NCBI GenBank assembly: GCA_001794945.1
Contig: MGMJ01000121.1
Span: forward strand, 2,077 to 43,002
Direction: 5' to 3'
Source of the DNA: Chloroflexi bacterium GWC2_73_18
Lineage (GTDB): Bacteria; Chloroflexota; Limnocylindria; Limnocylindrales; CSP1-4
Length of the DNA: 40,926 nucleotides
The notes below the pieces were generated by a model, which saw only the letters and a list, made by a program, of their open reading frames with translations, did no database searches and had not been told where the DNA came from. The position numbers were made by a program, and so were the translations under genes. Numbering within the stretch: the stretch's first letter is position 1; each line of letters opens with the position of its first letter. Positions 1 to 35,615 of this stretch are shown piece by piece.

Positions 1-933
1 GGCGACCTCCTGGCCGATCTCCTGCCCGAGCCGCAGGCGGGGCTGGCGGCCGGCATCCTGATCGGCCTTCGTGAGCGGGTCGATCGCGATGTCGCGGCCG
101 CCTTCACCGCCGCCGGACTCAGCCACGTCGTGGCCATCAGCGGCTGGAACATCGCCATCGTGGCCGGCGCCTGCGGTGCCGTGGCGCGGCGCCTCGAGCG
201 CCGGAGGCGGGCCCTCCTCGTGGGCGCCGTCGTCGTCGCCTACACGCTGGCGGCCGGTGCCTCCGCCTCGGTCGTGCGAGCGGCGCTCATGGCCGGAGTC
301 GTCCTCATCGCGCGCGAGGCGGGCCGGCGCGCCCGCGTCGTCGAGGCGCTGGGCCTGGCCGTGACGGCGATGCTGGTGGTCGACCCGGCCGCGGTGCTCG
401 ATCCCGGCTTCCAGCTCTCGGCAGCAGCGACCGCCGGACTCGTCGCCTGGGCGAACCCGCTCACCGCGCGGCTGGCCGGCCTCCTCCCCGCGCGCGCGCC
501 GCGTTGGCTGGTCGAGACGCTCGGCGTCTCGCTGGCGGCGCAGGCGGCGACGCTTCCCCTCGTGCTCGTCGACTTCGGCCGGCTCTCGCTCGTGGCACCG
601 CTGGCCAACCTGCTGGTCGCCCCGGTGGTGGCCCCGGCGATGGCCGCCGCCGCCCTGGCGCTCGTTGCCGCCTGGCTCGTCTCGCTCGGGGTGCCGGCCC
701 TGCTCGCCACGGGGCCGGCCGCGGCCGCCGCGTTCACGCTCGGGCTGATCGTGGCGATCGCCCGCGCCGCGGCGGCGATCCCCCTCGCGACCGTAACCCT
801 CCCGCCACCCGCGGCCGCCGCCCTCGCCGCACTGGCCGCGGCGGCTCTCTCGGTCGTCGGCGTGCCGGGCATCCGGAACGCCACCTGGCGGCGGCCGGCA
901 GGAGCGCAGCGGTCGACCGAGCCACCCGCGTGA
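1..933 (+). CDS. comEC: ComEC/Rec2 DNA-uptake channel domain protein, 5'-truncated by the window edge
   Basis: The frame is open from base 1, so the N-terminus lies outside the window; 310 residues are visible. The start of the visible part (LPEPQAGLAAGILIGLRER, then SHVVAISGWNIAIVAG at about residues 41-56) is the conserved Competence-domain entry of ComEC, the inner-membrane channel that passes single-stranded DNA during transformation. Many hydrophobic Ala/Leu/Val segments follow, as expected for a polytopic membrane protein. ComEC usually continues into a C-terminal metallo-beta-lactamase domain. Here the frame stops at 931-933 and that domain starts as a separate ORF at 930 through a GTGA overlap. 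The split may be genuine and translationally coupled, or may be a frameshift in a single gene. The family call is firm; whether the two pieces form one functional protein is not known from sequence. Confidence 0.9.
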   Translation, partial: GDLLADLLPEPQAGLAAGILIGLRERVDRDVAAAFTAAGLSHVVAISGWNIAIVAGACGAVARRLERRRRALLVGAVVVAYTLAAGASASVVRAALMAGVVLIAREAGRRARVVEALGLAVTAMLVVDPAAVLDPGFQLSAAATAGLVAWANPLTARLAGLLPARAPRWLVETLGVSLAAQAATLPLVLVDFGRLSLVAPLANLLVAPVVAPAMAAAALALVAAWLVSLGVPALLATGPAAAAAFTLGLIVAIARAAAAIPLATVTLPPPAAAALAALAAAALSVVGVPGIRNATWRRPAGAQRSTEPPA

Positions 934-2258
934 CGAGGTTCCGGATCCTCTTCGCCGACCGGCGCCGGCCCGCGGCCGTCGGGCTCGCCCTCCTGCTGGC
1001 ACTCGTCCCGCTCGGCGCGGCGCGGCCGGACGGACGGACGCGCCTCACCGTGCTCGACATCGGGCAGGGCGACGCGATCCTCTTCGAGGGCGCGAACGGG
1101 GGACGCGTCCTGATCGACGGCGGACCCGACCCGGACCGCCTCCTCGTCCTCCTCGACGGACGCCTGCCGGCGTGGGACCGGCGGATCGACCTGGCCATCC
1201 TGACCCACCCCCACGAGGACCATGTCGCCGGTCTTGCGGCTCTGCTCGACCGGTACCGCGTCGGCCGCATCTACGAGCCCGGGATGGTCGGCGCCGGCCC
1301 CGGCCACCGCGCCTTCGCCGCCGCGCTCGCACGGGGCGGCAGGCGAAGCGAGCGGCTGGCGACCGGAGACCGCTTCGCCGTCGACGGCGTCCGGTTCCGG
1401 GTCCTGTGGCCCGACCGCGACCGCGTCCCGGCCGGCCCATCGGACGACGGGAGCGCGGTGAACGACAGCTCGATCGTGCTCGCGCTCTCGGCCGGCTCAC
1501 GCCGCTTCCTGCTCACCGGTGACGCCGAGCTCGACGTGGAGGGGACACTGGTCGAGCGCGGGCTGGAGCGAGCGGACGTGCTGAAGGTCGGGCACCACGG
1601 CAGCCGGACCTCCTCGACGCCGGGCCTGCTGGCGGCGGTGCGGCCGCGCGTCGCGCTCGTCTCGGTCGGCGCGCGCAACCGCTACGGCCACCCCGACCCG
1701 GGCGTCCTGGAGCGCCTCGCGGCCGGCGGGGCGCGGGTCTTCCGCACCGACCGCGACGGGAGCATCACGGTCTCCACCGACGGCCGCGACCTCGAGGTCG
1801 CGACGGCCGACGGGCGGTCGATCGGGAGCGCCAGCCGGCTCGTGTACGATCGGCGCGATGGCGATCCCCGGACGCGTCGAAGCCGCCTCCCCGCACGCGG
1901 TCCGGCCCGCGGCGCGCGCGTAGATGCTCGCCTACTTCTGGGGCGAGGACGCCTACGGCATCGACCGCGCCGTCGAGACGCTCGCCCGCGAGCTCGCCGG
2001 GGCGGACGGCGGGCCGCCGACCGAGACCTGGCGGGTGAGCGGGGCGGAGGTCGACCTGGCCACCCTCGCCGAGCGACTCGCCACGCAACCGCTCTTCGGC
2101 GGCGGCCTCCTCGTCGTCGTCCGCGACCCGGGACCGCTGGCCCGATCCGCGGAGCAGCGCGCCGCGCTCGAGGTGACGCTCGCTTCGATCGCGCCCGGCA
2201 ACGGACTCGCGCTCGTCGAACTCGTGGACGCTTCGGCGCGACCCGGCGCCTCCCTTGA
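930..2258 (+). CDS. ComEC-type metallo-beta-lactamase domain protein (separate ORF, long out-of-frame tail)
   Basis: The GTG start overlaps the comEC stop by 4 nt. A hydrophobic segment near residues 15-30 is followed by TVLDIGQGDAILFEG, then the metal-binding motif HPHEDH from residue 93, a GHHGSRTSS box, and SVGARNRYGHP before the end of the fold. This order matches the C-terminal hydrolase domain of ComEC, proposed to degrade the non-transported strand. Recognisable domain sequence ends near base 1850 (about 307 residues). The reading frame has no stop there and continues Arg-rich and featureless to 2258, overlapping holA by 335 bp in another frame. The real C-terminus may therefore be earlier if there is a sequence error, or the protein may carry a non-homologous tail of about 135 residues. 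The domain call is secure and the 3' end is uncertain. Confidence 0.8.
   Translation: MTRFRILFADRRRPAAVGLALLLALVPLGAARPDGRTRLTVLDIGQGDAILFEGANGGRVLIDGGPDPDRLLVLLDGRLPAWDRRIDLAILTHPHEDHVAGLAALLDRYRVGRIYEPGMVGAGPGHRAFAAALARGGRRSERLATGDRFAVDGVRFRVLWPDRDRVPAGPSDDGSAVNDSSIVLALSAGSRRFLLTGDAELDVEGTLVERGLERADVLKVGHHGSRTSSTPGLLAAVRPRVALVSVGARNRYGHPDPGVLERLAAGGARVFRTDRDGSITVSTDGRDLEVATADGRSIGSASRLVYDRRDGDPRTRRSRLPARGPARGARVDARLLLGRGRLRHRPRRRDARPRARRGGRRAADRDLAGERGGGRPGHPRRATRHATALRRRPPRRRPRPGTAGPIRGAARRARGDARFDRARQRTRARRTRGRFGATRRLP
1845..1860 (+). promoter_or_regulatory. Probable leaderless promoter with a 21-codon leader ORF before holA
   Basis: TACGAT at 1845-1850 (preceded by TG) lies exactly 7 nt before an ATG at 1858. 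That ATG opens a 21-codon ORF ending in TAG at 1921-1923, directly abutting the holA ATG at 1924 in the same frame. The hexamer-to-start spacing equals that at four other starts in this window. The leader ORF could couple translation to holA, or could be accidental. No convincing -35 is visible. Confidence 0.4.
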
Positions 2259-2958
2259 CGCGTTGCGCGAAGCGGTCGACCGGGCGGGCGGCGAGGTCCG
2301 CCAGTTCAGGGCGCCGACCCGGGAGCGGATGGAGGCGTTGGTCGAGACTCGGGCGCGCGAGCTCGGCCTCGAACTCGAGCGCGGGGCGGCCCGGCTGCTC
2401 GCTCAGCGGGTTGGCGCCTTCGTGCGCGAGGGCGACGTCGACCGCCGCCGCCAGGGCCAGCTGGCCAGCGCCGAGCTGGAGAAGCTGGCGGTCTACCGGC
2501 CTGACGGCCGGGTGAATCTCGACGACGTGCGAGCGCTCGTCCCCGAGGCCGTCCCCGGCACGACGTGGGGGTTCCTCGACGCCATCGGCTCACGCCGAAG
2601 CGGGGAGGCGATGACGCTCCTGGACCGGCTGCTGACCGACGGCACGGCGCCGACCGCGCTCGTCTTCCAGCTGCACCGCCGCCTGCGCGAGCTGCTCGCG
2701 GCGCGCGAGCACCTCGCCGCCGGCGCGACGGCGGCGAGCCTGGTCAGGGCCATGAAGCTCAAGCCGTTCCGCGCGGAGAAGCTGGCCGAGCAGGCGCGCG
2801 CCTGGTCGGCGGAGGAGCTGGAGCGGGCCCTTGACGGTCTCTTCGCCGTCGACGTCGCGATCAAAGGGCTCGACGGCGCGGGGACGTCCGAGGCGGCCAA
2901 ACAGCTCACCTTCGAGCTGTGGCTGATCGAGCGGGTGGCGCGGGCGAGTCAGCGCTAG
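1924..2958 (+). CDS. holA: DNA polymerase III delta subunit
   Basis: This 344-residue protein has the length and layout of HolA, the clamp-loader subunit that opens the beta sliding clamp. The N-terminus MLAYFWGEDAYGIDRAVETL is typical of the delta AAA+-like domain. It is followed by PLFGGGLLVVVRDPG (about residues 56-70) and a C-terminal helical collar domain with LVFQLHRRLRELLAAREHLA and ELERALDGLFAVDVAIKG. As usual for delta, no intact Walker A motif is seen. An in-frame TAG directly precedes the ATG, so no earlier start is possible. comEC followed by holA is a common arrangement in bacteria. The start lies inside the non-stopping frame of the upstream metallo-beta-lactamase ORF. Confidence 0.9.
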   Translation: MLAYFWGEDAYGIDRAVETLARELAGADGGPPTETWRVSGAEVDLATLAERLATQPLFGGGLLVVVRDPGPLARSAEQRAALEVTLASIAPGNGLALVELVDASARPGASLDALREAVDRAGGEVRQFRAPTRERMEALVETRARELGLELERGAARLLAQRVGAFVREGDVDRRRQGQLASAELEKLAVYRPDGRVNLDDVRALVPEAVPGTTWGFLDAIGSRRSGEAMTLLDRLLTDGTAPTALVFQLHRRLRELLAAREHLAAGATAASLVRAMKLKPFRAEKLAEQARAWSAEELERALDGLFAVDVAIKGLDGAGTSEAAKQLTFELWLIERVARASQR

Positions 2959-3001
2959 CGGGTCGGGCGATAGGAGGCGCAGGCGCGCGTGGGCGGGCGG
3001 C

Positions 3002-3256
3002 CTACTCGGCCGAGGACCAGGCCTCCTCCTGGAGCACCAGGTCGCTCTCGATGGCGAAGACGCAGCGCCCGGCACCGAGGTCCAGCAGCTCGATCAGGCC
3101 AGGGTCGATGTAGAGCTGGTGGCAGTCCTCGCAAAGGCCGGCGGGGATCCCGAAGCAGAGCCGCTCGCTGCGGTCGGGCAGCCGGAAGGTCGTGTCGAAC
3201 CGCGAGTTGATCAGGCGGCGACCGCACTGGGGGCAACGCTCTCGCGGATGGGACAT
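3002..3256 (-). CDS. Small zinc-ribbon protein, YgiT-like N-terminal motif
   Basis: This 84-residue protein starts at an ATG with GAGGA upstream; an earlier ATG at 3316 would add 20 low-complexity residues and has weaker support. Residues 8-12 (CPQCG) and a later CEDC near residue 41 form a four-cysteine zinc-ribbon pattern. The segment GLCEDCHQLYIDP resembles the zinc-finger half of YgiT/MqsA-type proteins. The helix-turn-helix half of MqsA is absent and no toxin gene is adjacent, so a toxin-antitoxin role is not supported. The gene is convergent with holA, 43 bp away, and lies downstream of rsfS on the same strand. The function is unknown; the open frame with good cysteine spacing makes it a real gene. 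Confidence 0.7.
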   Translation of the reverse strand: MSHPRERCPQCGRRLINSRFDTTFRLPDRSERLCFGIPAGLCEDCHQLYIDPGLIELLDLGAGRCVFAIESDLVLQEEAWSSAE

Positions 3257-3380
3257 CTGACGGCTCTTCCTCGCCCTGGCCGGTCTCCTGCCGGCGCTGA
3301 CGATGATGCTAGGCACGTCAAGAGGGCCGCTCCATGACCCGCAGGTACCGCCCCGCGCCGGTACTCCTCCGGCAGGGGCG

Positions 3381-3833
3381 CTACTGCACGCGCAGGAGGG
3401 TCGGCGCGTCGGCCCAGAACCGCTCGAGCTGGTAGTAGTCGCGCTCGGGCGTGGCCATGACGTGGACGATCACGGCACCGAAGTCGAGCAGGACCCAGTG
3501 CGAGCCGGCGCTCCCCTCGCGTCCGAGCGGCTTCGTGCCCTGCCCGGCGAGCCCCTCGGTGATCCCGTCGGCGATGGCGCCGAGCTGTCGTTCCGAGCCG
3601 CCAGAGCAGATGACGAAGTAGTCGGCGATCGAGGTGAGCGAGCCGACGTCGAGAAGGACGATCTCCGACGCCTTCTTGTCGGCCGCCAGCTCGACGATCC
3701 GCCGCGCCGTGGCCAGCGCCTCGCGGTCGCGGTCGATCGGCGGGGGCTCGGTGCGAGCCGGCAGTCCGGCTCGGCGGGCGGCCCGGGGGGCACGCGGGGC
3801 GCGGGAGACGCGTTCGGCGCTCGGCTCGCTCAA
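3381..3833 (-). CDS. rsfS: Ribosome silencing factor RsfS
   Basis: This 150-residue protein belongs to the RsfS/Iojap family, which binds ribosomal protein uL14 and blocks subunit joining when nutrients are low. Conserved stretches are KKASEIVLLDVGSLTSIADY, FVICSGGSERQLGAIADGI, the GSHWVLLDFGAVIVHV region, and YYQLERFWADAP at the C-terminus. The first 35 residues are a basic, Pro/Ala-rich extension not typical of the family. No ATG or GTG is available, so the start is TTG at 3833, one base after the nadD stop, with a GGAGG Shine-Dalgarno (3844-3848) inside the end of nadD. The obgE-nadD-rsfS order is a widely conserved block, which strongly supports all three names. Confidence 0.9.
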   Translation of the reverse strand: MSEPSAERVSRAPRAPRAARRAGLPARTEPPPIDRDREALATARRIVELAADKKASEIVLLDVGSLTSIADYFVICSGGSERQLGAIADGITEGLAGQGTKPLGREGSAGSHWVLLDFGAVIVHVMATPERDYYQLERFWADAPTLLRVQ

Positions 3834-3834
3834 C

Positions 3835-4533
3835 TCAGTTCTTCCTCCACAGCTCGGGTGGGTAGAGATCGTGCCCGGCGATGTAGGCGGCGACGGCGGG
3901 CGGCACGAGGTAGCGGATCGAGCGGCCGGCCGCCACGCGCGCGCGGATCGCAGAGGCGGAGTGGCCGAGGTCGGGACCGACCAGGAAGAGGACCCGGTCC
4001 TCGAGGCCGGGGAAGTGCTCGGCGACCCACGGCCGCCCGGGCGTGCGGTGTCCCGGGCGCGGCACGACGGCGAGACGGCAGGCGCGCAGCAGCCGCTCCG
4101 GCTCGTGCCAGGTGTGGAGAAGGGTGAACGCTTCCGCGCTCATGATGAAGACGAAGGCGGAGGAGCGCCCTTCAGCCGTGGCCTCGGCGATCAGCAGCTC
4201 GACCGTGTCGGCGGCGTAGGACGGCCCGGTCCGGTCGACCTCGACGCGCGAGAGGGCGAAGGCGGGGTTGCCGGCGATCGCCAGTTCGACCATGGCGACG
4301 CGGTGCGCCGGCGGCGTGATGAGGCGGTCGGGCTTGTGCGGCGGCATGCCGGCCGGCACGAAGAGGACGCGCTCGAGGCCGAGCGTCTCGCGGACGTCCT
4401 CGGCGACCGCCAGGTGGCCGTAGTGGACCGGGTCGAAGGTGCCGCCCAGGATCCCCGTCCCGCCGGCCAGCTCGGACGGAGCGGGGGGCAGGCTGCCGGC
4501 GCTCAACGCTCCACCCAGTCCTCGTCCCTCCAC
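3835..4533 (-). CDS. nadD: Nicotinate-nucleotide adenylyltransferase
   Basis: NadD transfers AMP from ATP to nicotinate mononucleotide in NAD synthesis. The nucleotidyltransferase signature GGTFDPVHYGHLAVAEDV lies near residues 30-47, with VPAGMPPHKP and the C-terminal HSASAIRARVAAGRSIRYLV, a variant of the ISSTxIR motif. The mature length of about 200 residues is normal. Two starts are possible. GTG at 4533 lies inside the end of obgE. TTG at 4506 overlaps the obgE stop as TTGA, which would be classic coupling and removes nine residues. Either way about 20 extra N-terminal residues precede the fold. I list the longer form. Confidence 0.92.
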   Translation of the reverse strand: MEGRGLGGALSAGSLPPAPSELAGGTGILGGTFDPVHYGHLAVAEDVRETLGLERVLFVPAGMPPHKPDRLITPPAHRVAMVELAIAGNPAFALSRVEVDRTGPSYAADTVELLIAEATAEGRSSAFVFIMSAEAFTLLHTWHEPERLLRACRLAVVPRPGHRTPGRPWVAEHFPGLEDRVLFLVGPDLGHSASAIRARVAAGRSIRYLVPPAVAAYIAGHDLYPPELWRKN

Positions 4534-27200: not shown

Positions 27201-27692
27201 ATGGACGATCCCTCGAGCTGGCCCGCCTGGTACGTGGCGGCGCTGGCCGTCTTTGCCGCCGTCCTGGGCGGTCTCGCCGCCTACGACGCCCGGCGGCGGC
27301 GGATCCCCAACGCGGTCACCTACCCGGCGATCGCAGCCGCCGGCGCCCTCGCCTTCGTCAGCCCCGCCGGTCCGTGGTGGAGCTTCCTGCTGGCAGGCCT
27401 CTTCGCCGGGGCGGCCCTCGTCCTGCTCGCCCTGGCCTCGCGCGGCGGGATGGGCTACGGCGACGCCAAGCTGGCCGCCCTCGTCGGGCTTCTCACGGGC
27501 TGGCCCGGCATCCTCGTCGCCCTCTTCGTGGCGGCCGCTTCCGGCGCCGCCGTCGGGCTCGCCTTGATGACGGTCGGGCGCGCCCGGCGCGGCGAGCCGA
27601 TCCCCTTCGCACCCGCCCTCGCCGCCGGCGCGATCGTGGGCCTGGCCGCCGGCGGGCGACTCGCCCATCTCCTGTGGCCGGGGCTGGTCTGA
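27201..27692 (+). CDS. A24-family prepilin peptidase, methylase domain absent
   Basis: This 163-residue polytopic membrane protein carries the two catalytic aspartates of type IV prepilin peptidases. The first is in AAYDARRRRIPNAVTYP (residue about 30), the second in the GxGD motif of GGMGYGDAKLAAL (about residue 91). The standard PilD N-terminal zinc/methyltransferase domain is missing, so it should cleave but perhaps not N-methylate prepilins. It is the first gene of the pilus operon and its substrates are probably the four leader-bearing proteins encoded downstream. The ATG start is preceded by GGAG about 12 nt upstream. Confidence 0.88.
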   Translation: MDDPSSWPAWYVAALAVFAAVLGGLAAYDARRRRIPNAVTYPAIAAAGALAFVSPAGPWWSFLLAGLFAGAALVLLALASRGGMGYGDAKLAALVGLLTGWPGILVALFVAAASGAAVGLALMTVGRARRGEPIPFAPALAAGAIVGLAAGGRLAHLLWPGLV

Positions 27693-27706: not shown

Positions 27707-29449
27707 ATGGCTCTCCAGGCGGCGATCCCCGCTCCCGCCCCCGCTCCCGCTCCCGCCAGGCCCGCCCCCACCCGCCGCATCGGCGACCTCCTGCTCGAGG
27801 CCGGACTGGTCAGCCCGGAGGAGCTGCAGCGCGCCCTGGCGGCGCAGGCCGACCGCCGCAAGCGCCTGGGGGAGATCCTGCTGGAGGACGGCGTCATCGA
27901 CGACCTGGCCCTCGCGGCCGTCCTCGCCGTCCAGCTCGACACACCGCTCGTCGACCTGCGCGATCGCCCCAGCGAGGACGATGCGCTCCGGCTCCTCCAG
28001 GAGGCCGACGCGCGTCGCCTGACGACGCTCCCGCTCTCGGTCGAGAACGGGACGATCACGATCGCCACCGACGACCCCGGCAACGCGGCGATCCTCGCCG
28101 AGGTCGCCTCCCTGACGGGCCGGCAGGTCCGTCCCTTCCTGGCGCTCCGTTCGGAGATCCAGGAGGCGATCCCCCAGCGCTACCGGATGACCGGCGACCT
28201 GACCGCGCAGGTGTACGCCTTCACCAGCGCGCGCGCGGCGGCGGGAACGGCGCCGGCCCTGCGTGCCCGGTCGGTCGAGCTCGAGAACCTCAAGGACGCC
28301 CCGGTCGTCCAGATCGTCAACCTGCTCGTGGCCCAGGCGCTGCGCGACCGTGCCAGCGACCTGCATCTCGAGCCGCAGCCCCGCGGCCTGCGCATCCGCA
28401 CCCGCGTCGACGGGATCCTGCGCGACGCCACGATGCTGCCGAATGACCTCGCGCCGGGGCTGGTGAGCCGAATCAAGATCATGGCCGATCTCAACATCGT
28501 CGAGAAGCAGAAGGCGCAGGACGGCCAGATCTCGCTGGAGATCGACGGGCGCGCGATCGACATCCGGGTCGCCACGATGCGCACCATCTGGGGCGAGAAG
28601 GTCGTCATGCGCCTGCTCGACAAGGCCCGCTCGGTCTTCCAGCTGAGCGAGCTCGGCGTCCCCGACACGATGCTGCCGCCCTACCGGCGGCTCCTGGGCG
28701 CCCCCTTCGGCATGGTCATCGTGTCCGGACCGACGGGGAGCGGCAAGACGACGACGCTGTACGCCTCGCTCAACGAGCTCGACCGCGTCGCCCTTAACGT
28801 GACCACCATCGAGGACCCGGTCGAGTACACCTTCGAGAACATCAACCAGACCCAGGTGAATGCCGCCGCCGGGATCACCTTCGCCAGCGGCCTGCGGGCG
28901 AGCCTCCGCCAGGATCCCGACATCATCCTGGTCGGCGAGGTCCGCGATCGCGAGACCGCCGAGATCGCCGTCCAGGCGGCACTGACCGGGCACCTGGTCC
29001 TCTCCTCGATGCACGCCACCGACGCGACCGGGGCGCTGCTGCGCATGCTCGAGGTGGGCGTCGAGCCGTTCCTGGTGGCGGCGAGCGTCACCGGCGTCGT
29101 GGCGCAGCGGTTGATGCGCCGCATCTGCCCGCACTGCCGGATCGAGATCGAGCCGGCGATGGAGGAGCGCCAGCTCTTTGCCGCGGCGGGGATCGAAGCC
29201 CCGCGCGTCACCTTCGTGGGGCGCGGCTGCACCTACTGCGCGGGGACCGGCTTCTTCGACCGGGTCGGCGTCTACGAGATGCTCCGCGCCACGCCCGAGC
29301 TGCGCCGCCTGGTCACGCGCGGCGCCCACTCCGACGAGATCCGCGCCCAGGCGATCGCCGACGGGATGGTGCCGCTGCGCCTCGACGCGTTGCGGAAAGC
29401 CGCGGCCGGCGTCAGCACCGTCGCCGAGGCACTGCGGAGCGTCGCCTGA
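27707..29449 (+). CDS. pilB: Type IV pilus extension ATPase PilB/GspE
   Basis: This 580-residue protein starts with an Ala/Pro-rich leader, then an N-terminal MshEN/GspE-N domain (IGDLLLEAGLVSPEELQRAL at about residues 26-45). The ATPase core has Walker A in GPTGSGKTTTLYASL near residue 341, an Asp box (TTIEDPVEYTFENI), and Walker B in DPDIILVGEVRDRETAEIA. A His box (LVLSSMHATDATGALLRM) and a four-cysteine zinc motif, CPHC then CTYC, mark extension rather than retraction ATPases. It powers pilus assembly at the inner membrane face. The start lies 14 bp after the peptidase gene and the stop overlaps pilC by one base. Confidence 0.93.
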   Translation: MALQAAIPAPAPAPAPARPAPTRRIGDLLLEAGLVSPEELQRALAAQADRRKRLGEILLEDGVIDDLALAAVLAVQLDTPLVDLRDRPSEDDALRLLQEADARRLTTLPLSVENGTITIATDDPGNAAILAEVASLTGRQVRPFLALRSEIQEAIPQRYRMTGDLTAQVYAFTSARAAAGTAPALRARSVELENLKDAPVVQIVNLLVAQALRDRASDLHLEPQPRGLRIRTRVDGILRDATMLPNDLAPGLVSRIKIMADLNIVEKQKAQDGQISLEIDGRAIDIRVATMRTIWGEKVVMRLLDKARSVFQLSELGVPDTMLPPYRRLLGAPFGMVIVSGPTGSGKTTTLYASLNELDRVALNVTTIEDPVEYTFENINQTQVNAAAGITFASGLRASLRQDPDIILVGEVRDRETAEIAVQAALTGHLVLSSMHATDATGALLRMLEVGVEPFLVAASVTGVVAQRLMRRICPHCRIEIEPAMEERQLFAAAGIEAPRVTFVGRGCTYCAGTGFFDRVGVYEMLRATPELRRLVTRGAHSDEIRAQAIADGMVPLRLDALRKAAAGVSTVAEALRSVA

Positions 29450-30570
29450 TGGCCGTGCTCGACGCGCTCCGTCCGCGCCCGCCGACGGGACCGCCGGGCG
29501 GCAGCTTGCTGGAGCGCAACCTGCCGTCGCTCTTCAGCGTGAAGCGGGTCGAGCTGATCGTCTTCAGCCGCCAGCTCGCCACCTTCATCCGCGCCGGCAT
29601 CCCGATCCTCGACGGCATCCGGGTCATCCGCGAGCAGACCGGTTCGCGTCTCTTCCGCCGGACGCTCGACGCGATCGCGTCCGACCTCCGGGCGGGCGAG
29701 CCGATCTCGACCGCCCTGGCGCACCAGCCGCGGGTCTTCCCGGAGCTCTACGTCGACATGGTCCTGGCGGCCGAGGCGACCGGTGAACTCGACATCATCC
29801 TCGAGCAGCTGGCGCTCTACCTCGATCGAGGCGAGCGGACGGCACGCCGGATCCGGCAGGCGATGCTCTACCCCTCGCTGGTCCTCGGGCTCGCCGTCAT
29901 CGTCGTCTTCATCCTGATCACCTTCGTGCTGCCCGCCTTCGTGGCCCTCTTCGCCGATTTCGACGCCGAACTACCGGTGCCGACGCGGGTCCTGATGGCG
30001 CTGGGCTGGTTCGGTGAGCGCTACGGCCTGCTCAGCGGAGCGGCGGTCCTGTTGCTGCTGGTGCTCGCCTACCTGGCCCGCAACGCGGGGCCGATCCGCC
30101 GGCTGCGCCACCGCCTGGTGCTCCGCACGCCGGTCTTCGGGCCGCTCGTCCGGCTCGGCATCGCCGCCCGCTTCGCCCGCACGCTGGGGATCCTGGTGCG
30201 CGCCGGGGTGCCGATCGGCCAGGCCTTCGAGATCGTCATCAACGGCACCGGCAACCACGTCTACCGCGAGCGGCTGCGGCCGGCGCGCGAGCGGCTGCTC
30301 GTCGGCGAGGGGATCGCCGGGCCGCTGGCCGAGTCGGGGCTCTTCAGCTCGATGCTGATCCAGATGGTCCGCGTCGGCGAGGAGACCGGGACGCTCGACC
30401 GCTACCTCGAAGAGGCGGCCGACTTCATGGACGAGGACCTCGAGTACCGGACCCGCCAGATGGTCACCATCATCGAGCCGATGATGATCGTCGGCGTCGC
30501 CATGATGGTCGGCTTCGTGGCGCTCTCGGTGGTGACGCCGCTCTACGGGATCCTCGGGCACATCCGATGA
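29449..30570 (+). CDS. pilC: Type IV pilus platform protein PilC/GspF
   Basis: This 373-residue protein has the duplicated GspF architecture. One cytoplasmic helical domain (ELIVFSRQLATFIRAGIPIL at about residues 35-54) is followed by a membrane pair near residues 140-170. A second copy (ARFARTLGILVRAGVPIGQA) is followed by a C-terminal span ending GFVALSVVTPLYGILGHI. It is the inner-membrane platform linking PilB to the growing pilus. The ATG shares one base with the pilB stop (TGATG), and its own stop overlaps the next gene as ATGA, so these genes form a tightly coupled operon. Confidence 0.93.
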   Translation: MAVLDALRPRPPTGPPGGSLLERNLPSLFSVKRVELIVFSRQLATFIRAGIPILDGIRVIREQTGSRLFRRTLDAIASDLRAGEPISTALAHQPRVFPELYVDMVLAAEATGELDIILEQLALYLDRGERTARRIRQAMLYPSLVLGLAVIVVFILITFVLPAFVALFADFDAELPVPTRVLMALGWFGERYGLLSGAAVLLLLVLAYLARNAGPIRRLRHRLVLRTPVFGPLVRLGIAARFARTLGILVRAGVPIGQAFEIVINGTGNHVYRERLRPARERLLVGEGIAGPLAESGLFSSMLIQMVRVGEETGTLDRYLEEAADFMDEDLEYRTRQMVTIIEPMMIVGVAMMVGFVALSVVTPLYGILGHIR

Positions 30571-30974
30571 TCGGGCTGCTGCGCCGGCTCCACCGCGACG
30601 AGCGCGGCGTCGGCCTGATCGAGGCGCTCGTCTCCAGTGCGCTGCTGGCGATCGCCCTCGTCGTGCTGGTGGGGAGCTTCTCGACGCTCGCCATCGCCAG
30701 CCGCCGGGCCGAGCTGGTCGCCCTCGCCCAGGCGACGGCACGGGCCCAGGCGGCGCGTATCGAGGCGGCACCGTACCAGGCGAACGGCGACTACAGCGCC
30801 TACTACGAGACGCTCCCCTGGGGCGTGACGCGGACCGTCACGGTCGCCTGGTGGGACGGTGTCTCGGCCTGGGTGGGGACGCAGAACGCGAACGGACTCC
30901 AGAAGGTGACGGTCGCCATGGGCTCGGACGGCACGGCCGCGGTCACGCTGGAGTTCGCCAAGGCGAACCGATGA
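30567..30974 (+). CDS. Minor type IV prepilin, PilV/GspI-like
   Basis: This 135-residue protein has a short basic leader (LLRRLHRDERG) and a prepilin cleavage site G-VGLIEALVSSALLAIAL. Glu5 of the mature helix is present, followed by a hydrophobic alpha1 and a small beta-rich head. It should be processed by the A24 peptidase encoded three genes upstream and be incorporated in the pilus, probably as part of the initiating tip complex. The ATG overlaps the pilC stop. The head lacks a cysteine pair. Confidence 0.82.
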   Translation: MIGLLRRLHRDERGVGLIEALVSSALLAIALVVLVGSFSTLAIASRRAELVALAQATARAQAARIEAAPYQANGDYSAYYETLPWGVTRTVTVAWWDGVSAWVGTQNANGLQKVTVAMGSDGTAAVTLEFAKANR

Positions 30975-31501
30975 GCACGCTCGCCCGGCTCCGCCGGCTC
31001 GCCGCGGACGAGTCGGGGGCGAGCGTCACCGAGCTGCTCGTCGGGACGCTGGTGAGCGCACTCGTCATGGCCGGCATCACCTCGGCGATCTTCACCACCA
31101 ACCAGTTGCGCCTGCGCGCCGACGACCAGAACCGGATCGCCGGCGCCCTGGCCGTCGTCTCGCTCGACCTCGACCGCGACGCCGCCATGGCGACGGCGTC
31201 GGCGCCGGCGAAGAGCCAGACGACGGCGACATCCTGCAGCACGACGATCGACCTCGGTTTCCTCGAGGGCGGCGCCTCGGTCCGTTTCGGGACGACCGCC
31301 TCGGCGACCGACGGCCCGCTCTGGCTCCAGCGGGTCAGCGGCGCCGGGACGCTCACCGTCGCCCGAAACGTGGCCGCCTGCACCTGGCAGGTCGAGCGGG
31401 ACACGGGCGGCGACTGGACGATCCGGCTCGACCTGACCGTCACCGGCCCGAGCGGCGAGTCGGTGAGCCACTCCCTGCGGGCGCGGCCGCGCCTCTGGTG
31501 A
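30971..31501 (+). CDS. Minor type IV prepilin, PilW/GspJ-like
   Basis: This 176-residue protein has leader LRRLAADESG and cleavage before ASVTELLVGTLVSALVM, with Glu5 present. After the hydrophobic helix comes a longer head with two cysteines (ATSCSTTIDL near residue 89, VAACTWQVER near residue 136) that could form a disulfide. The size and position after a PilV-like gene suggest the J/W-type minor pilin. The ATG overlaps the stop of the previous gene and its TGA overlaps the GTG start of the next. The leader departs from the HRDERG sequence shared by its three siblings. Confidence 0.75.
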   Translation: MSTLARLRRLAADESGASVTELLVGTLVSALVMAGITSAIFTTNQLRLRADDQNRIAGALAVVSLDLDRDAAMATASAPAKSQTTATSCSTTIDLGFLEGGASVRFGTTASATDGPLWLQRVSGAGTLTVARNVAACTWQVERDTGGDWTIRLDLTVTGPSGESVSHSLRARPRLW

Positions 31502-33138
31502 GCGGCGGTGCCGGTAGCGCCATGATCTCGCGTCTCCACCGCGTCGCCGGCGCCCTCCACCGCGACGAGCGGGGCCAGTCGCTGGCGGTCGTGCTGGCGC
31601 TGGTGACGCTCCTCTTCCTGCTGGGGACCGCCCTGGCCGTGCAGGCCTCGACCGCGCTGCGGGTGACCGCCGCCAGCGACGGCCAGGCGGACGCCCTCCA
31701 TGCCGCGGACGCCGGCGCCGAGCTGGGGATCTGGTGGCAGCGCAACGGCCAGGCCGGCAACCCACCCGCCATCACGATCAACGGCCTCACCGTGTCGACG
31801 ACGGTGAGCGTCGCGCCGCCGCCCGGGGGCAGCGGCGCCGGCTGGCAGCAGTGGGGCTGGAACGGGCGGAGCCAGGCGACGACCAGCGCGCCCGGACCGG
31901 CGAGCTACAACGCTCGCTGGAGCACCTTCCCCACCCTGGCCCAGGGCACGCCGGTGGCAAGCGCGACGGTCGCCGCCGACGGCTACGTCTACGTCGGGGC
32001 GACGACCGGCCTCTACGCCTACCGCCCCGACGGGCAGCTCGCCTGGAGCTTCCTCTCCGCCGGACAGATTCCGGCGGTCGGCACGTTCAGCGGCAGCCCG
32101 GCGATCCTGACCACGGGCGGCGGGGCGAAGATGATCGTGGCCGCCACCGACGGCGCCGCGGCCACCGCCTCGAAGGTCTTCGGCCTGACCGAGGACGCGG
32201 CGAAGACAGGCGTCTCGATCACCTGGTCGTACAGCCTGGGCAACGGCGCGGGGGTCGGCTTCGTGGGCGGGGCCAAGCTGAACGTCGCCGGCACGCGGGC
32301 CTACCTCGCCGCGCGGAACTCGACCGTCTACGCCTTCGACACGACCGCGGCCGGCAACAACCCGCCGCTCTGGAGCAGCGCGACCGGCGGCGCGGTCGCC
32401 GTGCCGGTGGCGCTCAACGTGGCCGAGGACCGCGTCTACGTGGCGACCTCCACCGGCATCGTGCGCGCCTACGACGCGACGACCGGGGCGCAGTCCTGGA
32501 CCCGCACGGTCTCGGCCGGCGCCGTTCTCACCGCGCCGGTCTTCCACGACACCGGCGCCCGCAACCACGTCTACGTGGGAACGGGGGCGAACAGCACGAT
32601 CCGCGCCATCCGCGACCTGGGCAACTCCTCCGGCCAGGACTGGTCGGTCGCCCTCGGCGCCAACGCCTTCAGCGCGCCGGTCCTGGCGACGAGCGGCAGC
32701 CAGGAGTTCGTCTTCGTGGCGGACAGCGCGGGCGGGATCCGCAAGCTCGAGGACCTCGGCAACTCGGCCGCCACGCGCTGGACCTACACGCCGGTCGCCT
32801 CGCCCATCCAGTCCGGCCTGGCGATGGACTCGGCCGGCTTCCTCTACCTGGGCAACGACGCCGGCAGCCTCTACCGGATCGCCGACAACGGCGCGAGCGG
32901 CTCGACCAGCTGGACGCAGGCGGTCGGCCTGGGCGCCGTCCGCTCCGAGATCGTCGTCGGCACCGACGGCGACCTCTACGCGGTGACCGCCGGCAACCGC
33001 ATGGTGGCAGTGGGGGGGGCGGCGCCGGGCGGCCTGGCCACGGTGACCGCCACCGCCGGCGCGGCCACGGTGACGACGACCTACACCGACGTCGGCGCGG
33101 GTGTGCCGACGCTCTCGAGCTGGACCACCACGAAGTGA
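31498..33138 (+). CDS. PilX/GspK-like prepilin fused to a PQQ-type beta-propeller
   Basis: This 546-residue protein starts like a prepilin: ALHRDERG then QSLAVVLALVTLLFLLG, without Glu5, as in tip pilins of the GspK type. From about residue 150 to the C-terminus there are seven or eight propeller-like repeats, recognisable by VYVG, LYAYRPDGQLAW, VYAFDTTAAG, VRAYDATTGAQSW and LYRIADNGASGSTSW. PilY1-type propeller adhesins are normally separate proteins, so this looks like a combined tip pilin and adhesin. It may start at GTG 31498 (overlapping the previous stop) or at ATG 31522. The domain reading is by eye, and no calcium-binding loop was identified. Confidence 0.72.
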   Translation: MSGGAGSAMISRLHRVAGALHRDERGQSLAVVLALVTLLFLLGTALAVQASTALRVTAASDGQADALHAADAGAELGIWWQRNGQAGNPPAITINGLTVSTTVSVAPPPGGSGAGWQQWGWNGRSQATTSAPGPASYNARWSTFPTLAQGTPVASATVAADGYVYVGATTGLYAYRPDGQLAWSFLSAGQIPAVGTFSGSPAILTTGGGAKMIVAATDGAAATASKVFGLTEDAAKTGVSITWSYSLGNGAGVGFVGGAKLNVAGTRAYLAARNSTVYAFDTTAAGNNPPLWSSATGGAVAVPVALNVAEDRVYVATSTGIVRAYDATTGAQSWTRTVSAGAVLTAPVFHDTGARNHVYVGTGANSTIRAIRDLGNSSGQDWSVALGANAFSAPVLATSGSQEFVFVADSAGGIRKLEDLGNSAATRWTYTPVASPIQSGLAMDSAGFLYLGNDAGSLYRIADNGASGSTSWTQAVGLGAVRSEIVVGTDGDLYAVTAGNRMVAVGGAAPGGLATVTATAGAATVTTTYTDVGAGVPTLSSWTTTK

Positions 33139-33344: not shown

Positions 33345-33725
33345 ATGATCGGATCGCTGCGACGGATGCATCGCGACGAGCGTGGCTTCACGCTCGTGGA
33401 GATGCTCGTGGTGGTCACCATCCTCGGCATCCTCGCCGCGATCGTCACCTCGAGCCTGGTGGGTCTCACCTCGACGGCCAAGACGAACGCGTGCGCGGAG
33501 GAGCTGCGGACGGTGCAGACCGCGATGGACGCGATGCTGGCCAAGAACAACATCACGGGCGTGACCGCCCAGGCAACGGCGACCAACGACTTCTCGGCCC
33601 TGCCGGCCGGCACCGGCGCCGAGGCGCTCTCACCGACCTACCTGCGCCAGTCGACGACCAAGGGCTCGTACACCTGGACCGCCGCCGCACTTGTCTCGGC
33701 GGCCGCCACCGGCGGCTGTAGCTGA
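33345..33725 (+). CDS. pilA: Major type IV prepilin PilA-like
   Basis: This 126-residue protein has leader SLRRMHRDERG and cleavage before FTLVEMLVVVTILGILAAIV, the canonical type IVa/pseudopilin alpha1 with Phe1 and Glu5. A cysteine at NACAEEL and another in the C-terminal GGCS may form the D-region disulfide. The short head suggests a thin or compact pilin. The ATG at 33345 has GTGGAG close by and AAGGAG further up; the open frame upstream is not coding. It is separated from the minor pilins by 206 bp, consistent with a need for much higher expression, and ends at a strong hairpin. Confidence 0.85.
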   Translation: MIGSLRRMHRDERGFTLVEMLVVVTILGILAAIVTSSLVGLTSTAKTNACAEELRTVQTAMDAMLAKNNITGVTAQATATNDFSALPAGTGAEALSPTYLRQSTTKGSYTWTAAALVSAAATGGCS

Positions 33726-33791: not shown

Positions 33792-34838
33792 CTAGACCGC
33801 CAGCTCCTCGGGGTGGAGCGTGGCCGTCGCGGCGTCTGCCGGATCCACCAGGCCCTCGTGGATCAGGCGGCGCAGGTCCGCCTCGAGCGTCCGCATGCCG
33901 GCCGCCGCGCCCGTCTGGATGACGTTGCGCAACTGGTTGGTCTTGCCCTCCTTGATCAGGTTGCGGATCGCCGGCGTGGCGAGCATCACCTCGAAGGCGG
34001 CGACTCTCCCCCCTTCGTCCCGGCGCGGCAGGAGCACCTGGTGGAGGATCGCCAGGAGCGTCTGCGAGAGCTGGATCCGGACCTGGCGCTGCTGCCCGGG
34101 GGGGAAGACGTCGACGATCCGGTCGACCGCCTGGGCGGTGTCGTTGGTGTGGAGCGTGGCGAGGACCAGGTGGCCCGTCTCCGCCAGCGTCAGCACCGCC
34201 GCGATCGTCTCGAGGTCGCGCATCTCCCCCACCTGCACGACGTCGGGGTTCTCGCGCAGCGCGGCGCGCAGGGCGCGGGCGAAGTCGAGGGTGTCCGAGC
34301 CGACCTCCCGCTGCACCACGATCGAGCGACGGTGGCGGTGGACGTACTCGATCGGGTCCTCGATGGTGATGACGTTGACCGCCCGTTCGCGATTGACCCG
34401 GTCGACCATGGCGGCCAGGGTGGTCGACTTGCCGGCGCCGGTCGGGCCGGTCACCAGGATCAGGCCATTCGGCCGACCGACCAGCTCGGCGCAGACGGCC
34501 GGCGCTCCGAGCGCCTCGAGCGAGGGGATCTCGTAGGGGACGAGCCGCAGGGCGCCGGCGAGCGTGCCGCGCTGGAAGAAGAGGTTGGCGCGGATGCGCG
34601 CGGTCTCGCCGAAGGCGAAGCTGAAGTCGATCTCGCGGCGCGACTGGAGCTCGCTCCAGCGTTCCCCCGCGAGCGTGCGGGCGAGCGCGGCCGTCTCGTC
34701 AGGGAGGAGCGGCGCCGTCTCCAGCGGGACGAGCGCGCCATCGACGCGCGCCGTCGGTGGGACCCCCGGGGCAAAGAGAAGGTCCGAGCCGTTCCGCTCG
34801 GCGACCGCGCGCAGGAGCGCCTCGAGCCGTCCGTCCAC
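33792..34838 (-). CDS. pilT: Type IV pilus retraction ATPase PilT
   Basis: This 348-residue protein has the PilT layout. The N-terminal PAS-like part contains VDGRLEALLRAVAERNGSDL. Walker A is in LVTGPTGAGKSTTLAAMVDR near residue 130, the Asp box in VITIEDPIEYVHRHR, Walker B in NPDVVQVGEMRDLETIAAVL, and the His box in HLVLATLHTNDTAQAVDRIV. The retraction motif AIRNLIKEGKTNQLRNVIQT is present. It lacks the zinc-binding cysteines of PilB. The GTG at 34838 gives the normal family length; the frame is open for 250 more codons upstream but is low-complexity there. The gene is convergent with pilA, so extension and retraction genes are separately transcribed. Confidence 0.92.
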   Translation of the reverse strand: MDGRLEALLRAVAERNGSDLLFAPGVPPTARVDGALVPLETAPLLPDETAALARTLAGERWSELQSRREIDFSFAFGETARIRANLFFQRGTLAGALRLVPYEIPSLEALGAPAVCAELVGRPNGLILVTGPTGAGKSTTLAAMVDRVNRERAVNVITIEDPIEYVHRHRRSIVVQREVGSDTLDFARALRAALRENPDVVQVGEMRDLETIAAVLTLAETGHLVLATLHTNDTAQAVDRIVDVFPPGQQRQVRIQLSQTLLAILHQVLLPRRDEGGRVAAFEVMLATPAIRNLIKEGKTNQLRNVIQTGAAAGMRTLEADLRRLIHEGLVDPADAATATLHPEELAV

Positions 34839-35615
34839 CTCGCCGGCTAGCCTCGCTTGCAGGGACAGGCCGTGACCACTTGGGCGAAGTGTAAGGTCAG
34901 GCCGCGAGGTTCGCGCGACCCAGGGGGACGCCGACCGATCGAAGGCCTGCCAGGGGGAGCCCGGCGGGGACCGGCTCGGTGGGGGCGGCGGCGGCCCGGG
35001 GCGGCGGCGGCCCGGCTGGAGCGGTGCCGTCTCGCGTTCTGCTGGCCAGGACAAAGCCCGCCGCGGACCCGCCGACCCGCCCATGCCCGCCCGAAGCCAC
35101 GTACCCGCATCGATCGGGCGACGGAACGAGGACGCCGGGCCACGGCCCGCACCGTCCTGCCGGCCGCGGGGGGGCACCAGGGGGCCGCGGCGCCCACCTC
35201 GGACAAGGGGGATCGGCGCGCTGCCCCGGCCTCGCCCCCGCCCCGCACGCTCGCCCCCGCCCCACGCGCGCCCACCTCCCGGCCGGTGGCCGAGGGGATG
35301 GAGTCTGTCCTGCTGCGCAGAACGTCGGCGGGAGGCCGCCGGACGAGGCCCCCACCGCCACGAGGCCGGGCAGGCCGCGCTCCGGAGGCGGCGGCCGGGA
35401 GCGGCCCCAGGCGGCCCTCCTGGCGCTCGCCCCGCTCGAAGGCGATCCCCGGCGCGCCGGGCGCGGTGGCATGCGCCCGGAGGCCCGTCACGAACGCCTC
35501 GCGGCGGCGGCGGAGAGGGCCGGCCAGGCGATCGGGCGTCGCCTCGCGCTCGGGCGACCGCCATGGACGGTTCGAAGGGCGGGTCAGCGCCCTTCACTGG
35601 TGTACAGTCCCGGTC
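34839..35615. other. Intergenic region of about 780 bp without a recognised gene
   Basis: This stretch separates pilT (-) from the receiver-like gene (+). It is extremely GC-rich with runs of C and G. Long open frames cross it on both strands, but their translations are Arg/Pro/Ala/Gly-rich with no domain, which is typical of spurious frames at this GC content. Apart from the two promoter elements at its ends I see nothing I can name. Confidence 0.5.
34877..34893 (-). promoter_or_regulatory. -10 element of pilT with an overlapping inverted repeat
   Basis: On the - strand TACACT (34893-34888) lies 50 bp before the pilT start. CACTT (34877-34881) and AAGTG (34887-34891) form an inverted repeat across the -10 and the expected +1, where a repressor could act. 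No good -35 is visible. Confidence 0.35.

Follow-up and report, generated by a model that had tools for sequence, protein, structure and literature searches.

Can a pilus subunit carry a beta-propeller within its own chain, and what would such a subunit do on the filament? The question is raised by an open reading frame (ORF) in a 40,926-nucleotide stretch of Chloroflexi bacterium GWC2_73_18 (contig MGMJ01000121.1, positions 2,077 to 43,002; hereafter the window), whose genome (G000) is a 2.93-Mb draft in 137 contigs, 89.6% complete, and was compared with those of three relatives (G009, G061 and G060). Sequence, synteny and a structure model support the reading that this ORF (31498-33138, plus strand, 546 aa) encodes, in one chain, a PilX/GspK-type prepilin lacking the glutamate at mature position 5 (Glu5) together with a propeller, in a type IV pilus locus in which PilY1 was not detected. 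We consider it probable that the product serves a retractile type IV pilus as a modular, K-type minor pilin devoid of Glu5, with the propeller shown at the tip and most likely engaged in binding.

The ORF is a genuine gene, since its GTG start shares bases with the stop codon of the preceding prepilin gene (GTGA), its third-position GC is alike in scaffold, insert and tail (0.97-0.98), and its reading frame is kept at either end of a pilin scaffold common to its orthologues; an alternative ATG start at 31522 would give an 18-aa leader. The leader is of class III, with a predicted cleavage site after Gly and a hydrophobic alpha1, and reads ...HRDERG/QSLAVVLALVTLLFLLGTALAV (slash, predicted cleavage; mature start QSLAVV), so that the fifth mature residue is Val. 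Glu5 is present in each of the operon's three remaining prepilins, leaving this as the sole Glu5-less one of four, and the prepilin leader and Glu5-less alpha1 described in an earlier note on this DNA were thereby borne out. The gene follows V- and W-type prepilin genes, and the same order of V, W and then a PilX slot was found in the pilus gene clusters of all four Chloroflexota genomes sampled. Glu5-less PilX (Myxococcus xanthus, Pseudomonas aeruginosa, Neisseria gonorrhoeae) and GspK are placed atop the minor-pilin complex (PMC7541494). It is the absence of Glu5, the place in the operon and the scaffold, and not a Pfam score, that make the protein a plausible PilX/GspK (K-type) minor pilin.

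The insert matched PQQ_2 (PF13360) at 48.1 bits (cut-off 27.6) and Beta-prop_ACSF4 (E=2.7e-15), and no other protein of the genome passes the PQQ_2 cut-off. Eight spaced Trp-docking motifs occur at residues 141, 183, 243, 292, 334, 382, 428 and 472, and self-similarity at lags of 44-46 residues is far higher than in shuffled sequence (37.9 versus 25.1 ± 1.8 in 200 shuffles). An AlphaFold2 model of the propeller alone, guided by a six-row alignment of propellers from viral contigs (collected by degenerate PQQ-motif scans), reached a predicted local distance difference test (pLDDT) score of 76.4 and a predicted template modelling (pTM) score of 0.80; its best Foldseek match in the PDB was the eight-bladed design Cake8 (E=5e-18, TM-score 0.89 by target), followed by BamB and YxaL. 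Profile, periodicity, AlphaFold2 and Foldseek together confirm the insert as a predicted eight-bladed BamB/PQQ-type beta-propeller. The BamB equivalog TIGR03300 scored 50.5 bits, far under its cut-off of 285. The earlier note had allowed seven or eight PQQ-type repeats and had suggested structure prediction as a check: the type held, the count settles at eight on the Trp motifs and both structural methods, and a propeller was indeed predicted. It had also read the protein as a possible one-piece pilus tip adhesin, in contrast to Proteobacteria, where minor pilins and the PilY1 propeller are separate proteins. As an analogue of PilX plus PilY1 the protein stands, but as a literal fusion of the two it does not, and a one-piece PilY1 domain was rejected on the eight blades rather than seven and the lack of a PF05567 (PilY1/PilC) match in Pfam scans of the protein.

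The pilin does not end where the propeller begins. A conserved segment (LATVTATAG...PTLSSWTTTK) resumes the pilin past the propeller, and a merely C-terminal propeller was dropped once this tail came to light; as read from the aligned sequences, the propeller is inserted between the N- and C-terminal pilin parts and not appended. The pilin-propeller fusion of the earlier note accordingly survives as one chain, though not as a simple fusion. The first Trp strand lies ahead of blade 1 and would complete blade 8, bringing the propeller ends together, an arrangement suited to insertion. Orthologues in G009 and G061 occupy the same operon slot, with N-scaffolds 64% identical to that of the host and tails 62% (G009) and 50% (G061) identical, in operons whose pilB, pilC, V and W products are 58-74% and whose pilins are 82-87% identical to those of the host. 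Their inserts are 58% identical to each other (that of G061 includes an 80-N gap), whereas the host propeller is 27-30% identical to either, which is the level of shuffled sequence. By sequence comparison, the same scaffold thus carries unrelated modules in related genomes; as it is kept on both sides of an unrelated insert, the difference is one of module, with the scaffold as socket, and suggests an exchangeable "tool head" at the pilus tip, in a swap that may have run either way. The G009/G061-type insert gave no Pfam hit over cut-off, no PHROG and no PDB sequence match, and reads, in our own interpretation only, as a two-part lectin (LamG)/jelly-roll-like module. Orthologous pilins at L023 3855-5369 (on the contig that also holds L079) and L025 4549-6334 (minus strand) carry a module of about 370 aa with no profile match, and G060, a less close relative, has a short version (about 250 aa).

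By its gene content the surroundings make up a retractile type IV pilus locus, running pilD, pilB, pilC, V, W, X and pilin, then a convergent pilT (Table 1), and the operon is syntenic with that of two relatives. No secretin match was obtained in the genome by a search whose controls gave signal, and no PilM match exceeded its cut-off. A comEC gene (PF03772, 180 bits) lies at window positions 1-933 (plus strand), truncated at the window's left edge and 26 kb upstream of the pilus locus. Two more T2SSE-family ATPases, possibly Tad-type, are encoded elsewhere in the host genome (G000:C118:37086-37919 and G000:C128:5709-6548).

Table 1. Features of the pilus locus, in window coordinates (slash, predicted leader cleavage).
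Feature	Position	Strand	Basis
pilD, short A24-type prepilin peptidase	27201..27692	+	tblastn of G061 PilD, 62% over 133 aa, E=1e-21
pilB, extension ATPase (MshEN + T2SSE), start approximate	27707..29449	+	Pfam T2SSE 389 bits, MshEN 70.7 bits
pilC, platform protein	29449..30570	+	Pfam T2SSF 199.5 bits
PilV/I-like minor prepilin, Glu5 present	30567..30974	+	N_methyl at cut-off; DERG/VGLIE
PilW/J-like minor prepilin, Glu5 present	30971..31501	+	leader DESG/ASVTE, operon slot; no Pfam hit
Candidate PilX/K-type modular minor prepilin with beta-propeller insert	31498..33138	+	ORF, Pfam, orthologues, AlphaFold2, Foldseek
Leader (to ...DERG) and alpha1/pilin N-scaffold	31522..31812	+	64% identity to G009 and G061 orthologues; PilX_N 19.5 bits
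Predicted inserted eight-bladed PQQ/BamB-type beta-propeller (core about 31900-33030)	31813..33033	+	PQQ_2, Trp motifs, AlphaFold2, Foldseek
C-terminal pilin segment (LATVTATAG...PTLSSWTTTK)	33034..33138	+	62% (G009), 50% (G061) tail identity
Major-type pilin (DERG/FTLVEMLVVV)	33345..33725	+	N_methyl 40.4 bits; 82-87% identical to relatives' pilins
pilT, retraction ATPase, with approximate start (within ORF 33792-35597)	33792..34870	-	Pfam T2SSE 145.5 bits; same position, similar sequence in L025, L023

How such a subunit might work can be outlined as follows. PilD would cut the leader after DERG, and alpha1 would anchor the protein at the distal end of a minor-pilin complex of V-W-X type, from which pilus assembly would start. 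The closed eight-bladed propeller, inserted in the globular domain of the pilin, would then be displayed at the filament tip, where its most likely task would be to bind a ligand on a surface, be it a polysaccharide, a protein or another cell, on which retraction then pulls; the pilin scaffold would serve as the socket, in which orthologues of related genomes hold another module. The architecture, the operon, the insertion and the module difference are observed, and it is from PilX/GspK homology and the published modular pilins that we infer tip position and adhesion, along with ligand, priming and leader processing. Several points weigh against this proposal. PilX_N (PF14341) scored 15.9-19.5 bits (E=1e-3 for 19.5 bits), under its cut-off of 25.5, and a full-length single-sequence AlphaFold2 run (pLDDT 41) gave no usable model of the pilin-propeller geometry. 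The propeller form was met once and the orthologues hold another module, so that conservation is no test of propeller function. The genome gave no PilY1 match, but the controls of that search were silent, and comEC together with a single pilB/pilC/pilT set speaks for a possible role in DNA uptake.

That role is the strongest rival, if an unlikely one: the filament would serve chiefly in competence, and the propeller at its tip would handle DNA or a substrate rather than act as a surface adhesin. Competence pili of monoderms are minimal and secretin-free, as is this locus, which encodes the only pilB/pilT pair seen among the T2SSE ATPases (the two other T2SSE genes lie elsewhere), and comEC is present in the same window; yet comEC is not adjacent to the pilus locus, the propeller showed no identified DNA-binding feature (no test for one was made), modular pilins of known function are mostly adhesins, and adhesion and uptake are not mutually exclusive. 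Rather improbable is a propeller acting as a sensor or enzyme (PQQ- or metal-dependent) that reports surface contact or acts on a polymer, as might be suggested by a fold common to PQQ dehydrogenases (the PF13360 match) and by the reported part of PilY1 in calcium-regulated pilus control; the PQQ dehydrogenase family PF01011 reached 16.2 bits, under its cut-off of 26.7, and the best structural matches were BamB, YxaL and designed propellers. Hardly credible is an artefact, whether a chimeric assembly or a chance readthrough that fused a pilin gene to a propeller gene. A fragmented draft and the occurrence of the propeller form in one genome only might speak for it, but it was rejected on the conserved in-frame flanks, the even third-position GC and the synteny with two relatives.

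Beyond these operons, a scaffold profile found PilX-like or similar N-termini in 43 of 400 Chloroflexota genomes, the weak matches including other pilin types. Modules in 28 PilX-like proteins included DUF7305 (6), the commonest family, DUF11, He_PIG, a bactofilin-like domain and a putative ice-binding-like adhesive domain, and several PilX-like Chloroflexota pilins have a Trp-containing strand at their end. The search for the same domain pair, also proposed in the earlier note, returned a propeller in one of the 28, that of the host, together with a different pairing elsewhere: L144 (G186:C594) 2115-4049 (plus strand) encodes a Tad-domain pseudopilin fused to a PQQ propeller in a Tad pilus locus, near TadE-, CpaB-, CpaE- and CpaF-like genes, and by its domain matches is a second pilin-class/propeller fusion in Chloroflexota. 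Across 84,980 species genomes, scanning yielded only three close scaffold relatives (Chloroflexi bacterium RBG_16_72_14, MGR_bin394 and CF_107), none with a propeller. Solenoid-like modules occur on PilX-like pilins of other Chloroflexota (L052, L055, L059, L061, L062, L071 and L072), and at L148 5217-7823 (plus strand) a tandem pair of PilX-like genes follows V and W in one type IV pilus operon. More tentatively, and falling a little short of an even balance, the PilX/K subunit without Glu5 in type IV pili of Chloroflexota may be a general exchangeable tip socket, into which whole folded modules (propeller, jelly-roll-like, DUF7305 solenoid, Ig-like or adhesive) are inserted and replaced between related strains, one family thereby doing the job of PilX and PilY1 in diderms.

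The locus extends the modular-pilin idea to the Glu5-less tip or priming subunit and to a PQQ/BamB-type propeller, and suggests how a propeller could come to be displayed at the tip in lineages where PilY1 was not found. Three related operons share one pilin scaffold but fill it with two unrelated inserts. This is a natural experiment, and whether the tip pilin sets what a type IV pilus sticks to therefore becomes testable by gene swaps in a laboratory strain.

Modular pilins are widespread (PMC8179133), the published census having relied on the IPR012902 motif (PMC8179133, PMC9934059), and the class is already known, from the modular pilins of Streptococcus sanguinis and, with a propeller, from TM7x PilX2, so that the fusion is not unprecedented; what is new is the PQQ/BamB-type eight-bladed module, the Glu5-less nature of the subunit into which it is inserted, and the fact that orthologues differ in their module. 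The closest functional precedent is PilX2 of TM7x (Nanosynbacter lyticus, Saccharibacteria), likewise a beta-propeller minor pilin; deletion of pilX2 cuts host binding by about half, and it stands beside PilX1, a minor pilin with a jelly-roll-like module (PMC12206443). However, the PilX2 propeller is RCC1-type, seven-bladed and described as C-terminal, and no PilD signal peptide was predicted (PMC12206443), whereas the Chloroflexi pilin has a PQQ/BamB-type, eight-bladed, inserted propeller, a clear leader and different modules on its orthologues. The S. sanguinis adhesins PilB (vWA) and PilC (Ig and lectin) (PMC8179133, PMC9934059) share the class III leader and a pilin module joined to a general binding domain, and are modelled at the tip in a monoderm without PilY1, PilC/PilY1 being stated to be absent in monoderms (PMC9934059), but they possess Glu5 and C-terminal modules where the Chloroflexi carrier is Glu5-less with its module inserted. 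In the PilX-PilY1 tip complex of M. xanthus and P. aeruginosa (PMC7541494), a Glu5-less PilX also sits on top with a propeller above it, although there two proteins do what one chain would do here, and the PilY1 propeller is seven-bladed with its own Pfam family whereas the Chloroflexi one is eight-bladed and BamB/PQQ-type. The Tad protein of L144, likewise from a pilus locus in Chloroflexota, pairs a pilin-class N-terminus (PF13400 Tad) with a PQQ_2 propeller, but belongs to the Tad pilus class, lacks PilX_N and has its propeller at the C-terminus. GspK, the tip pseudopilin of the type II secretion system, is Glu5-less with an extra domain inserted in the pilin beta-sheet (PMC8179133); there the insert is an alpha-domain on a secretion pseudopilus, here a propeller on a pilB/pilT pilus.
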